A stretch of 64,000 nucleotides of DNA from Stenotrophomonas indicatrix (GTDB taxonomy: Bacteria; Pseudomonadota; Gammaproteobacteria; Xanthomonadales; Xanthomonadaceae): the NCBI RefSeq assembly GCF_002750975.1, contig NZ_PEJS01000001.1:3410001-3474000 (forward strand), read 5' to 3'. The notes beneath the pieces are model-generated. The model was not told the DNA's origin. It did not search any database and saw nothing but the letters and a program-made list of their open reading frames with translations. Below are positions 23,336 through 45,081 of the stretch, piece by piece; the first letter of the stretch is position 1, and the number at the start of each line of letters is the position of its first letter. The position numbers and the translations under genes are program-made.

Positions 23336-24040
23336 ATGAGCCGCCATTCACGACATCCCGAGCTGCACCGTGCCGATCGCGTGGGCTGGCTGCGGGCCGC
23401 CGTACTGGGCGCCAACGATGGCATTGTCTCGGTCGCCGGCCTGGTGGTCGGCGTGGCCGCCAGCGGCGCCTCGGCCAGCACGATCCTGGCCACCGGCGTG
23501 GCCGGCACCGTGGCCGGCGCGATGTCGATGGCCGCCGGCGAGTATGTGTCGGTGCAGACCCAGGCCGATACCGAGAATGCCGATCTGGCGATGGAGAAGC
23601 GCGAGCTGCACGAAGACCCGCACAGCGAACTGGACGAACTGACCGCGATCTACCGCCATCGCGGGCTGGAGCCGGCGTTGGCGCGCCAGGTTGCCGAACA
23701 GCTGACCGCCCACGACGCGCTGGGTGCCCACGCGCGCGACGAACTGGGCATCACCGAGGAACTGCGCGCGCGGCCGTTGCAGGCCGCATTGGCGTCGGCC
23801 GCCGCCTTCACCTGTGGCGCCGCGCTGCCGGTGCTGACCGCACTGCTGACGCCGGTACAGAACGTCGCCACGGCCACCACGGTCAGCACGCTGGCCGGCC
23901 TGTGCCTGACCGGCGCGATGGCGGCACGCGCCGGCGGCGCATCACCCACGCGCGGCGCCCTGCGCGTGATGTTCTGGGGTGCACTGGCGATGGCCGCCGC
24001 GGCCGCGGTCGGTCGCCTGCTGGGCGCGCACGTCATATGA
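23336..24040 (+). CDS. VIT1/CCC1-family metal transporter
   Basis: A 234-residue inner-membrane protein with about five hydrophobic helices. The first helices contain the family motif LGANDGIVSVAGLVVGVAAS and GAMSMAAGEYVSVQTQADTE, which are diagnostic for the Ccc1/VIT1 group of iron or manganese carriers; the hydrophilic loop (residues about 85-145) is the cytosolic metal-binding domain with several acidic and histidine residues. Its stop codon overlaps the start of the following AraC regulator (ATGA), so both are made from one message. Confidence 0.9.
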   Translation: MSRHSRHPELHRADRVGWLRAAVLGANDGIVSVAGLVVGVAASGASASTILATGVAGTVAGAMSMAAGEYVSVQTQADTENADLAMEKRELHEDPHSELDELTAIYRHRGLEPALARQVAEQLTAHDALGAHARDELGITEELRARPLQAALASAAAFTCGAALPVLTALLTPVQNVATATTVSTLAGLCLTGAMAARAGGASPTRGALRVMFWGALAMAAAAAVGRLLGAHVI

Positions 24041-24861
24041 CCGGTATGCCCCCCACCGCCATGGCACTACTGGCGGAGATGGCCAGCCTGGCCGGCTGCC
24101 AACGCGCTGAGGGCTATGCCTGCATCACCGCCCGCCGCGAGCACGGTGCCAGTTCGGTGGAGATTCCCCAGCCACAGTTCGCCATCCTGCTGGAAGGCCG
24201 CAAGCAGGTACGTACCGCCCACCAGTCGCTGACCTTCGTCCCCGGCGACATCCTGCTGATCACCCAGCGCTGCCGCATCGACGTGGTCAATACACCGGAC
24301 CCGCAGACCGGCCGCTACCTCAGCGCGATCGTGCCGCTGTGCACGGAAGTCCTGGCGGCAGCGCGCACGCTGTGGAGCGAGGCCTTGCCAACGGCCGGAG
24401 CGGCGCTGGCCCGGCAGGCGCTGGGCGATCACGCCACGGTACTGCGCAGCTGGCGGCAGTCGTTGCAGGACGGCCACTACAGCGAAGCGCGGTTGGCGCT
24501 GGCCACGCTGGTGCTGGCGTGGTGCCGGCAGGGCCACGGCAACCTGCTGTTGCCGCACGCACCGACGCTGGGCGAGCAGATCCGCGACCGCATCGCCGCC
24601 GAGCCGGCCCGCGACTGGCATTCGCGCGACGTTGAGGCGCACTTCGCGCTGAGCGGTGCGACCCTGCGGCGGCGGTTGGCCGCCGAAGCCACCAGCCTGC
24701 GCCAGCTGCTGACCGAAGCGCGCCTGGCCCATGGCATGCAGCTGCTGTACACCACCGATCTGCCGTTGAAGACCGTGGCAGCGCGCGCGGGGTATCGTTC
24801 CGCAGCGAGTTTCAGCAAGCGCTTCGCCGAGCAGTACGGGCTGGCTCCCACAGATATTTGA
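24037..24861 (+). CDS. AraC-family regulator coupled to the VIT-type transporter
   Basis: A 274-residue regulator. The N-terminal half is a cupin-type AraC_N domain (IPQPQFAILLEGRKQVRTAH, FVPGDILLI), and residues about 180-274 carry the two helix-turn-helix units (DVEAHFALSGATLRRRL and LPLKTVAARAGYRSAASFSK). The ATG at 24037 overlaps the stop of the metal transporter by four bases, indicating translational coupling. Possible role: control of the transporter operon or of efflux; the effector is unknown. Downstream lie nearly 700 bases of palindromic DNA. Confidence 0.9.
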   Translation: MTGMPPTAMALLAEMASLAGCQRAEGYACITARREHGASSVEIPQPQFAILLEGRKQVRTAHQSLTFVPGDILLITQRCRIDVVNTPDPQTGRYLSAIVPLCTEVLAAARTLWSEALPTAGAALARQALGDHATVLRSWRQSLQDGHYSEARLALATLVLAWCRQGHGNLLLPHAPTLGEQIRDRIAAEPARDWHSRDVEAHFALSGATLRRRLAAEATSLRQLLTEARLAHGMQLLYTTDLPLKTVAARAGYRSAASFSKRFAEQYGLAPTDI

Positions 24862-24865
24862 GGGT

Positions 24866-25073
24866 TCTTCAGCAGGGCTGCGCCCTGCACCCGCAGAGGC
24901 AACGGCAACAGCCGAAGCAACAGCAACAGCGTGCATTCCGTGGGGTGGCGGGGCGGTGTGGGTATGCAGGACACGCCGTAAACCCATCCATGGGGGCTCG
25001 ATGGCGCCATCCATGGCGCCAACGGTCCTGCATACCCACACCGCCCCGCCTTCGACAGTTTCCCGGTGGCCCG
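24866..25073. repeat. Large palindromic element 1
   Basis: About 200 bases without a gene. It starts with a GCAGGGCTGCGCCCTGC palindrome, then a tract of CAACGGCAACAG/GAAGCAACAG units, then a 26-base arm (24947-24972) whose exact complement lies at 25025-25050. The 52-base apical part holds two smaller dyads, CCCATCCATGGG and TGGCGCCATCCATGGCGCCA. TTCGACAG follows the right arm. A second element with the same plan lies head-to-head at 25226-25460. Confidence 0.85.
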
Positions 25074-25200
25074 TAAATCCACGCCATGCGTGGATGATTT
25101 CCTCCACGTTCATTCGATTCATTTCGATGATTCCGAATTGAATTCGAAGAGCATCCACGCATGGCGTGGATCTACGTGTCGACCAAGGTCGACACCCACC
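25073..25200. repeat. REP palindromes and AT-rich spacer between two large palindromic elements
   Basis: Two copies of the ATCCACGC/GCGTGGAT hairpin (25076-25095 and about 25153-25175) and one GTGTCGACC-AA-GGTCGACAC hairpin surround an unusually AT-rich patch with GAATTGAATTCGAAG around 25134. No coding potential is seen. Confidence 0.7.
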
Positions 25201-25225
25201 AAAAGCAGGTCATGCCATTCCAACA

Positions 25226-25460
25226 GATCGCGGGAATCTGTCGAAGGCGGGGTGGGTCCGGTTGTGGGGGTGTCCGCGGCATGGATGCCGCGGCCAAGCC
25301 CCCATGGATGGGTTCACGGCGTCCCCCGCAACCGGACCCACCCCGCCTCCCCACAGGAAGCCAGCTTCTGCTGTTGCTTCGGCCGTTGCTGTTGCTTCGG
25401 CCGTTGCCGTTGCTGTTGCCTCTGCGGGTGCAGGGCGCAGCCCTGCGGATAACCCCCATT
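25226..25460. repeat. Large palindromic element 2 (inverted relative to element 1)
   Basis: A 25-base left arm (25246-25270) pairs with 25323-25347 with a single G-U wobble. Inside are CCGCGGCAT-GG-ATGCCGCGG (25274-25293) and CCCATGGATGGG. To the right are GTTGCTGTTGCTTCGGCC repeats and GCAGGGCGCAGCCCTGC. The order of parts is the reverse complement of element 1, but the long stem has a different sequence. It ends about 95 bases before the metallo-beta-lactamase-fold gene. Confidence 0.85.
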
Positions 25461-25555: not shown

Positions 25556-26530
25556 ATGACCCTGCGTCATCTGCCATTGCACGCCGCCCTGCTGCTGGCC
25601 CTGTCCTCCCTGCCGCTGGCCGCGCTGGCCGAAGCCACCTCGCCCGCCCCCACCCAGCAGGTGCCGGGCGTGCAACACCAGCGCATCGGTGCGCTGCAGG
25701 TCACGGCCCTGTTCGACGGCGTGGTTGCGCTCGGCCGGCAGGAAGTGGTCGACGTGCCGCCAACGCTGGTCAGCCGCCTGCTCGAAGGCCGCTATGTGCC
25801 CGAAGACAAGAAGGGCCTGCAGACCGCGATCAACGCCTTCCTGGTGCGCCAGGGCAAGCACCTGACCCTGGTCGATGCCGGCACCGCGCAGTGCTTCGGC
25901 CCTGACCAGGGCCAGGTGCTGGGCAACCTGCGTGCGGCCGGCGTAGACCCGGCCGAGATCGATGAGGTGCTGCTGACCCATGCCCATCCCGATCATCTGT
26001 GCGGGATCCTCGATGCACAGGGCAAGCCGGCCTATCCGAATGCGACGGTGTGGCTGTCCAAGGCCGATGCCCGCTACTGGCTCGACCCGGCCAGCGAAGC
26101 CACGGCACCGCAGGGCGTGCGCTTTGCCTTCGCGCTGGCACGCAACGCGATCGCGCCGTACCAGGCCGCCGGTCGCCTGCACACCTTCCAGCCTGGCGAC
26201 GCCCTGCCGGGGCACGCGGTGGCGATGGATACCCACGGCCACACGCCGGGGCATGTGTCCTACCGCTTCGACAGCCAGGGCCAGTCACTGCTGGTGTGGG
26301 GCGATGTGCTGCATTTCCATGCGGTGCAGTTCGCACACCCGGAAGCAGCATTCGAGGCCGATTCGGATCGCACGGCGGCTACGGCCAGCCGTCGCAGCCT
26401 GTTGCAGGAAGCCACCGCCAAGGGCTGGTGGGTTGCCGGCGCGCACCTGCCCTTCCCCGGCCTGGGGCACGTGCGCAGCGAAGGCCAGGCCTATGCGTGG
26501 GTACCGGCGGAATATTCGCCACTGAAATGA
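25556..26530 (+). CDS. Periplasmic metallo-beta-lactamase-fold hydrolase
   Basis: A 324-residue MBL-fold protein with a signal peptide (about residues 1-25, ending PLAALAEA). The zinc motif HxHxDH is intact in LLTHAHPDHLCGIL (near residue 140), a second ligand histidine is in DTHGHTPGHVSYRF, and the bridging aspartate is in LLVWGDVLHF. Sequence style is that of lactonase-like or hydrolase members rather than beta-lactamases. It should act in the periplasm on an unknown ester, lactone or thioester. GAGAAGAA precedes the ATG. The gene is flanked on both sides by palindromic repeats. Confidence 0.9.
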   Translation: MTLRHLPLHAALLLALSSLPLAALAEATSPAPTQQVPGVQHQRIGALQVTALFDGVVALGRQEVVDVPPTLVSRLLEGRYVPEDKKGLQTAINAFLVRQGKHLTLVDAGTAQCFGPDQGQVLGNLRAAGVDPAEIDEVLLTHAHPDHLCGILDAQGKPAYPNATVWLSKADARYWLDPASEATAPQGVRFAFALARNAIAPYQAAGRLHTFQPGDALPGHAVAMDTHGHTPGHVSYRFDSQGQSLLVWGDVLHFHAVQFAHPEAAFEADSDRTAATASRRSLLQEATAKGWWVAGAHLPFPGLGHVRSEGQAYAWVPAEYSPLK

Positions 26531-44689: not shown

Positions 44690-45081
44690 TGACGACTCCG
44701 TGTCATGTAGTGAACGGGAAGGATAACTGTGTCCAATGGCCTGGCGCTATCACGCAACGCGTCGTTTCTGGCACGACATGCACCCTCCGGAAATCTGCAA
44801 CTTCACTCATTCCAACAGGCCGGCCAGCGTGTGAAATTCCTTATGCCAGCGCGTTCTGTGTTGGCCGGGATTGGCGTCCCGAATGAAGCTTTTCAGAGGC
44901 GGGCTTGCAACGACGTTGCAGGACCGAACAATGCACCGTCCGTCGTTCTGCGGCGGGCGGTGCGAGGGGATCTTCCGGATCCGCCGGCTTCATTTCCTCT
45001 GGAAAGCTTCACCGGCACGCCAACCCGCACCGCCCGCCACCTTGCATTCCGCAGGTGGCCCAGCCCTGTGAGGTTGTTGCC
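44690..45081. other. Intergenic region with a long-range hairpin
   Basis: About 390 bases without a gene between the divergent S41 gene and the unknown gene at 45082. The only structure I see is GGCGGGCGGTGCG (44952-44964) paired perfectly with CGCACCGCCCGCC (45026-45038), with 61 bases between. The part near 44700-44850 is less GC-rich and likely carries the promoters. Confidence 0.5.

Follow-up and report, generated by a model that had tools for sequence, protein, structure and literature searches.

The window analysed here, a stretch of 64,000 nucleotides from Stenotrophomonas indicatrix, contains two long palindromic elements arranged head to head between a gene for an AraC-like regulator and a metallo-beta-lactamase-fold-like ORF (Table 1). 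Genes related to the AraC-like one occur at 21 loci of named or MAG records. Each unit, read in its own orientation, comprises a short hairpin, a hexamer tract (GCAACR), a stem of ~26 bp capped by two hairpins (P2 and P3), and GACAG. Throughout, the strand carrying the tract is termed plus and its complement minus.

Table 1. Features of the paired elements and flanking genes, in window coordinates
Feature	Positions	Strand	Basis
Upstream gene, AraC-like regulator (stop codon 24859-24861)	24040..24861	+	ORF; family named by eye
Leading hairpin GCAGGGCTGCGCCCTGC, adjoining the stop codon	24872..24888	+	Sequence
Hexamer tract, GCAACR type (GAAGCAACAG)	24889..24930	+	Sequence
Element 1, tract orientation (complement = folded strand)	24943..25062	+	Model R1, 141.7 bits
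Element 1 outer stem, left arm	24947..24972	+	Inverted-repeat search
Element 1 hairpin P2, minus-strand loop CCATGGATGG	24983..24994	-	Sequence, folding, loop-motif count
Element 1 hairpin P3, minus-strand loop CCATGGATGG	25002..25021	-	Sequence, folding, loop-motif count
Element 1 outer stem, right arm	25025..25050	+	Inverted-repeat search
REP of class SM4 (known; outside the element proper)	25073..25095	+	Sequence vs class table (PMC3686654)
Second SM4 REP, inverted	25153..25175	-	Sequence vs class table (PMC3686654)
SM1-like REP palindrome	25176..25200	-	Sequence vs class table (PMC3686654)
Element 2, head-to-head (folded GGA strand = window +)	25234..25351	-	Model R1, 126.6 bits
Element 2 outer stem, one arm	25246..25270	+	Inverted-repeat search
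Element 2 hairpin P3, loop GCATGGATGC	25274..25293	+	Sequence, folding
Element 2 hairpin P2, loop CCATGGATGG	25301..25312	+	Sequence, folding
Element 2 outer stem, partner arm	25323..25347	+	Inverted-repeat search
Hexamer tract, mirror image	25365..25428	-	Sequence, inverted-repeat search
Leading hairpin, mirror image	25430..25446	-	Sequence, inverted-repeat search
Downstream gene, metallo-beta-lactamase-fold-like ORF	25556..26530	+	Gene call; named by eye (HAHPDH-type motif)

An earlier note on this DNA had described a perfect 26-base stem in element 1, and an inverted-repeat search returns exactly that (26 nt, 100%). It had also described a long stem with one non-Watson-Crick pair in element 2; here the search gives 25245-25270/25323-25348 (26 nt, 96%), and the sole such pair is G.U on the window + strand and A.C in the element's own tract-first orientation. 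Sequence and folding likewise bear out the two inner hairpins with TCCA loops in both elements, a shared CCCATCCATGGG hairpin, and the TTCGACAG edge, the tract, the leading hairpin and the head-to-head arrangement. The GGA-to-GGA distance between P2 and P3 of element 1 is 23 nt. Folding z-scores for the two strands are -9.2 and -8.7 for element 1 and -8.4 and -7.3 for element 2 (0 of 200 shuffles in each case), and, taken as a whole, the paired unit also reads as a loose inverted repeat. No third copy was found in the window at E 0.01 when it was scanned with the family covariance model R1 (see below); the other R1 matches, at 47.9 and 38.2 bits, are reverse-strand shadows of the same two elements. 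Among copies, the hexamer tract and leading hairpin (24872-24930 and 25365-25446 in the window) vary in length and sequence, and at some loci an SM8 REP lies within the tract. This part of the unit could possibly serve as a length-variable typing locus.

A dispersed family with covarying stems

A core pattern allowing up to two mismatches has 77 matches in the genome, compared to one for the reversed-pattern control. From 68 own-genome copies we built the covariance model R1, which has at least 150 matches in the same genome; the fetched own-genome loci contain 156 distinct copies, a minimum for the genome. The earlier note had proposed that the stems vary in sequence while remaining paired, and had suggested a covariance model as the check. 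Both the copies and the covariation were found: 29 of 38 pairs have changed on both sides and standard pairs fill 96.3% of the cells of the 68-copy alignment, cells that are not independent events because the copies share descent. The covariation score is 0.478, versus 0.135 for shuffled and 0.04-0.07 for slid partners. Head-to-head pairs are frequent. When neighbours less than 600 bp apart are considered among the 156 copies, 49 pairs face inward (median gap 153 bp), one is tandem and none faces outward.

Within the genus, the core pattern is present in 74 of 91 genomes, with 0 to 104 matches per genome. Several draft contigs (L136, L138, L142 and others) end in or just past the palindrome; hence, assemblies can break at elements and counts from drafts may be low. 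Across the family, 66 of 297 genomes (17 of 54 genera) have matches, as do 54 of 250 genomes (20 of 77 genera) across the order, although in these wide searches lone matches may be due to chance, the reversed control giving one or two matches in a few genomes.

Kinship with YPAL, RU-2 and Ysr224

At gathering score, Rfam reports nothing at either element. The sole match in the window lies elsewhere, a C4 antisense RNA (RF01695) at 44946-45044 (+), upstream of a small ORF, which at 53.8 bits is above the cut-off. The same model gives 27.8 bits on the minus strand of element 1, 33.7 bits at locus L067 and 26.6 bits at L014, all below its gathering score of 45 bits, and we therefore did not assign the elements to C4 antisense RNA. 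Under permissive settings, Ysr224 (RF02770) matches element 1 at 26.6 bits and element 2 at 29.5 bits. It also matches elements at 10 of 20 further loci, with scores up to 44 bits (L116), including 6 of the 7 own-genome loci among the 20. One caveat here is that unrelated microRNA models score alike on the long stem, so the Ysr224 scores alone are not decisive; the many weak microRNA matches themselves we take to be chance hits to a long stem.

Comparison with RU-2 provides a second line of evidence. By eye, Ysr224 is the reverse complement of RU-2/YPAL, as judged from the RU-2 sequence given in PMC2759123. Local alignment to RU-2 on the complementary strand yields scores of 55 for element 1 and 54 for element 2, compared to maxima of 26 and 23 over 300 RU-2 shuffles, with the opposite orientation at noise level. 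A class-wide search with Ysr224 (E 0.001) finds matches in 38 of 369 genomes and 35 of 271 genera, and in none of 14 named controls. Conversely, R1, built from own-genome copies only, matches 27 of the 28 fetched loci outside the genus that had been found with Ysr224. One further copy lies on the Marinobacter adhaerens plasmid pHP-187, where the R1 score is 78.9 bits and the arms are wholly different; with core queries, this was the only match among plasmids, phages and E. coli. Viral contigs gave no match to an exact 25-nt pattern.

Homology of the core with Yersinia YPAL/RU-2 and with Ysr224 is well supported by these alignments and searches, which indicate that relatives occur in other gammaproteobacterial families. 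Neither the kinship nor the GGA loops figured in the earlier note. The resemblance to YPAL/RU-2 extends over a homologous core of ~50 nt, both hairpins, the CANGGANG loops (present in both hairpins of RU-2 as well), and the character of a mobile intergenic repeat; the GGA spacing is 24 nt in YPAL/RU-2 and 23 nt here. YPAL/RU-2 was described as a Yersinia element of ~168 bp (Delihas 2007, PMC2759123), whereas the present family comprises at least 156 copies, has near-perfect arms of ~26 bp in very many sequences, often forms head-to-head pairs, and carries a hexamer tract, a leading hairpin and, in either loop, structured inserts. With the element read tract first, Ysr224 aligns to its core. 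In contrast to Ysr224 proper, the present loci fall below its cut-off of 70 bits, which explains why Rfam is silent at its own threshold; this value was exceeded in none of the 369 genomes (best, 51.3 bits in genome G750). Because the gathering score is not reached, we class the repeat as a relative of Ysr224 rather than Ysr224 itself, and the sequence comparisons place it as a branch within a known family rather than as a new kind of element. Ysr224 is described as an sRNA found by RNA-seq, several copies of which are differently expressed in Y. ruckeri, with the strand as given by Rfam (PMC12112432).

Placement and turnover in intergenic regions

The elements keep beside gene ends: at least one gene 3' end adjoins 99 of 107 units. 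The 59 single copies with a gene on both sides lie in convergent (27), sense tandem (18), antisense tandem (12) and divergent (2) intergenic regions. A sense gene is located upstream in 45 of these and missing in 14, and in 43 of the 45 the distance to it is 33 to 116 nt. YPAL is said to insert close downstream of stop codons, and the placement seen here is of that kind. Pairs, defined as inward neighbours less than 260 bp apart, number 48, of which 17 are in convergent, 25 in tandem and 6 in divergent regions; for all gene neighbours in the window, the corresponding numbers are 10, 34 and 9. Genes for these counts were predicted from a simple codon score. Between tandem genes, orientation is not fixed.

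The earlier note had suggested comparing occupied and empty sites, and inspection by eye of orthologous positions revealed occupied, altered and empty ones, as in YPAL, with gain and loss left unpolarised. The AraC site is occupied in named Stenotrophomonas records by left and right elements that belong to different subfamilies and share their position. Some of these carry large structured inserts in the loop of P2 or P3; in the distant genome L152 the site is empty. Two further sites show the same arms with or without a P3 insert (L221 versus L222), swapped P3, and wholly new arms with the flanks kept (L223, L225). They are element-free at L228, L231, L232, L234, L236, L237, L239 and L262-L268, and at L254 and L256 the palindrome is shortened, with the inner part of the element missing, as expected from deletion at a long palindrome. 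The structured inserts are ~70-85 nt long and sit inside the P3 or P2 loop (L016, positions 1467-1665; L221; L226; locus L135 of D457). In strain LMG 978 (L148), the stretch with the left element occurs twice in tandem at the AraC site, again by eye.

For a quantitative view, copies were compared with those of a second genome, G068. A syntenic fetched locus is available for 108 of the 156 own copies, 97 of them with an element in like orientation; as the G068 loci were chosen for having elements, loss is unsampled in these numbers. Identity is at least 85% for 38 of the 97 orthologues. The stems of these 38 differ by 44 one-sided changes (65 when pairs beyond the stem are included) and 15 both-sided Watson-Crick changes, against a chance expectation of less than one both-sided change by a rough hand estimate. 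At 45 diverged sites with differing arms, a near copy of the own arm was found elsewhere in 28 cases and of the G068 arm in 33. These data fit copying between loci together with template switching inside the palindrome, in line with the copying mechanism that the earlier note had offered as one source of the double changes.

Strand asymmetry, loop motif and candidate ligand

Mismatches in the outer stems are distributed unequally between the strands. In 303 elements with distinct arms, drawn from the 353 without loop inserts, the plus strand has 6865 Watson-Crick pairs, 25 G.U, 210 A.C and 169 others. A.C on plus corresponds to G.U on minus, which argues for minus as the folded strand, on which G.U pairs make up only ~3%. 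The bias recurs in own copies (A.C 63, G.U 10), in G068 (60, 9), and in 83 copies from other genomes, 33 of the genus and 50 of the family (91, 6). Counted per element, 146 lean to A.C and 14 to G.U. A single recurrent position contributes 35 of the 210 A.C pairs, leaving 175 without it. The same tendency is seen in 33 copies from other gammaproteobacterial families (45 versus 8; 21 elements versus 1). Control REP stems from the own and G068 loci are close to even (SM4, 9 A.C and 11 G.U; SM1-like, 10 and 6) or uninformative (SM8, 0 and 0). Substitutions in the flanks of orthologues lean slightly the opposite way (A/G 464, C/T 539), compared to 22 to 10 in the stems (binomial P = 0.05; Fisher test against flanks P = 0.018, although P values from pooled counts are too small because copies share descent). 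RNA folding energy favours minus by a mean of 2 kcal/mol, with 232 of 353 copies lower on minus and 121 on plus. The fold and its strand preference are thus well supported by stem sequences, and the bias would look similar for folded RNA and single-stranded DNA.

Of the forms that the earlier note had left open (structured RNA, DNA cruciform, mobile element), the cruciform loses ground here. Long perfect palindromes in many intergenic copies might well suggest a double-stranded cruciform acting as a DNA site, for gyrase, IHF or chromosome structure. Both strands would then fold alike, and A.C and G.U should be equal, as they nearly are in the REPs; the asymmetry of the stems makes this reading very improbable and favours one folded strand. 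Comparing A.C with G.U in this way offers a cheap test, for palindromic repeats in general, of whether one strand folds or a cruciform forms.

On the minus strand, both loops carry CANGGANG in 336 of 353 copies (P2, 343; P3, 345), a conservation that for P2 is partly by construction because the core pattern used for retrieval contained the P2 TCC; TAC-type P2 copies and P3 lay outside that pattern, and later R1 searches include both. Sites for the motif number 693 on minus and 23 on plus, and the spacing between the two is 23 nt in 325 of the 336 copies. The first N of P2 can be any base (T 199, G 85, A 47, C 12), the second is nearly always a pyrimidine (T 172, C 168, A 2, G 1), and the same loop is kept across three kinds of P2 stem (CCC, TAC, TCC). 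Structured inserts in the P2 loop mostly have non-GGA loops. GGA in hairpin loops is what would be looked for in a CsrA/RsmA-binding RNA. The preferred target of these proteins is given as RUACARGGAUGU in hairpin loops (PMC7937890), and shorter forms as ACARGGAUG (PMC3937308) and ANGGA (PMC7366521). Among 33 distant copies, 25 have the motif in both loops; UACARGGAUGU is found in 8 and the complete RUACARGGAUGU in 3. L389-L418 span 88,752 bases with 9 ACARGGAUG sites, every one of them within an element; near home, this longer form is rare (1 of 353 copies). CsrA is encoded in all 91 genomes of the genus, including those free of the element.

We propose, with a probability of roughly 0.45, that the repeat is a mobile, gene-converting element whose RNA offers paired sites for RsmA/CsrA. 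Its working form would be the minus strand alone, folded into the ~26-bp stem with two short hairpins. The loops would present CANGGANG 23 nt apart, and the most likely ligand, to judge from the loop motif, is CsrA/RsmA, a dimer of which could bind both. Transcripts carrying an element might be bound in cis, and >150 copies could titrate RsmA in trans; a head-to-head pair would place a GGA-loop hairpin in the transcript whichever direction is read. The unit itself would spread, and be overwritten, by copying in intergenic space, whether by transposition, gene conversion or both. We infer transcription of the folded strand, binding of RsmA, an effect in the cell and the mode of mobility from these features. 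The interpretation in the earlier note is in part supported, and two alternatives that it had set side by side hold jointly on this view: a mobile or gene-converting element, with a copying process adding double changes, and selection on a folded form, to which strand choice and loop conservation point in the shape of a single-stranded fold. Several observations count against RsmA. The Ysr224 model lies on the opposite, UCC-loop strand, and transcripts of the relatives may be that strand; orientation between tandem genes is mixed; and P2 inserts lose the GGA loop. A role for the plus-strand UCC loops as anti-Shine-Dalgarno sequences was set aside on the strength of the mismatch bias, although the orientation of Ysr224 keeps it alive.

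Known RsmA ligands differ in several respects. RsmX/Y/Z, CsrB/C and RsmU also have hairpins with GGA in their loops, whereas the present family is a dispersed repeat with two sites per unit and no known promoter. A 138-aa HHH_3 ORF was taken for comEA, the source gene of RsmU. No R1 match adjoins it at eight loci of one genus (g18), and at L384 and L387 a match lies ~1.3 kb away; a link to RsmU was therefore dropped. RsmU is described as 3'-UTR derived (PMC7694677). Intergenic repeats at ISPpu8 sites were recovered together with three Rsm proteins of P. putida; one of them was called a 'long palindromic region' (PMC7937890), and the repeats may belong to the present family.

The main rival holds that the folded strand is single-stranded DNA and that the hairpin pair is a signal for an HUH (Y1) or other transposase acting in trans, making the repeat selfish and MITE-like. 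Strand-specific folding fits the tolerance of DNA for G.T, and presence, absence and replacement at orthologous sites are natural outcomes of transposition. The two elements of the window are separated by REPs, which are thought to be mobilised by Y1 enzymes. According to PMC2229807, YPAL is a mobile element with target duplications; the ends of the units studied here are poorly delimited. Copy number rises with Y1 transposase matches across the 91 genomes (Spearman 0.62); however, 14 of the 17 element-free genomes have such matches as well, so the correlation may reflect ancestry. REPs and BIMEs resemble the present family, as does SMAG, in being high-copy intergenic palindromes, but REPs consist of one short hairpin with a GTAG tag and have nearly equal mismatch classes. 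By eye, the 68-copy alignment has neither a GTAG nor a CGTC tag at the hairpin foot, and the family is not among the 13 REP classes tabulated in PMC3686654. As this reading also leaves the loop match to a known RNA-binding consensus unexplained, we consider it possible and somewhat unlikely.

A plain 3'-UTR hairpin, stabilising or terminating the upstream transcript or serving RNase III without RsmA, would owe its loops to descent only. That single copies avoid divergent intergenic regions and often closely follow stop codons is what such a role predicts. A 2006 paper on YPAL reportedly measured an effect at the mRNA level. YPAL is also said to possibly influence upstream transcripts (PMC2229807). 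Yet the first loop base is free while CA, GGA and G are kept across the three P2 stem kinds, orientation relative to genes is mixed, and the stem is followed by TTNGACAGNTTC in place of a U-run, on which ground an intrinsic terminator was rejected. We regard this explanation as improbable. It is less probable still that the repeat has no function, with arms kept matched by template switching during replication and copies spread by ectopic conversion. The excess of both-sided changes and the near arm copies elsewhere are as this account would have them, but strand-specific mismatches and conservation of the loops from Stenotrophomonas to Yersinia are not explained by it. Template switching and conversion may well renew the arms beside a function.

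Our literature search, in which subscription journals were mostly outside, found no published account of the strand-specific stem mismatches, of the GGA loop motif, of the RsmA link or of the Stenotrophomonas branch; among the matches listed for CCATCCATGG, no title concerned such a repeat. A broader form of the RsmA reading, which we put forward with considerable doubt, is that a mobile family has carried paired CsrA/RsmA sites across the Gammaproteobacteria and, in Stenotrophomonas and relatives, has become a dispersed sponge of >150 units that replaces or adds to RsmB-type antagonists. Homologues of rsmB were stated in 2014 as not identified in Xanthomonas (PMC3937308), and RsmU was later reported in one species (PMC7694677). 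If the idea is correct, repeats so far seen as mobile clutter or as stabilisers of mRNA would instead supply a global regulator with binding sites that spread, and the activity of RsmA would vary with the number of repeats, which ranges from 0 to >100 copies between species of one genus. The rsmB gap in Xanthomonas would then become testable.
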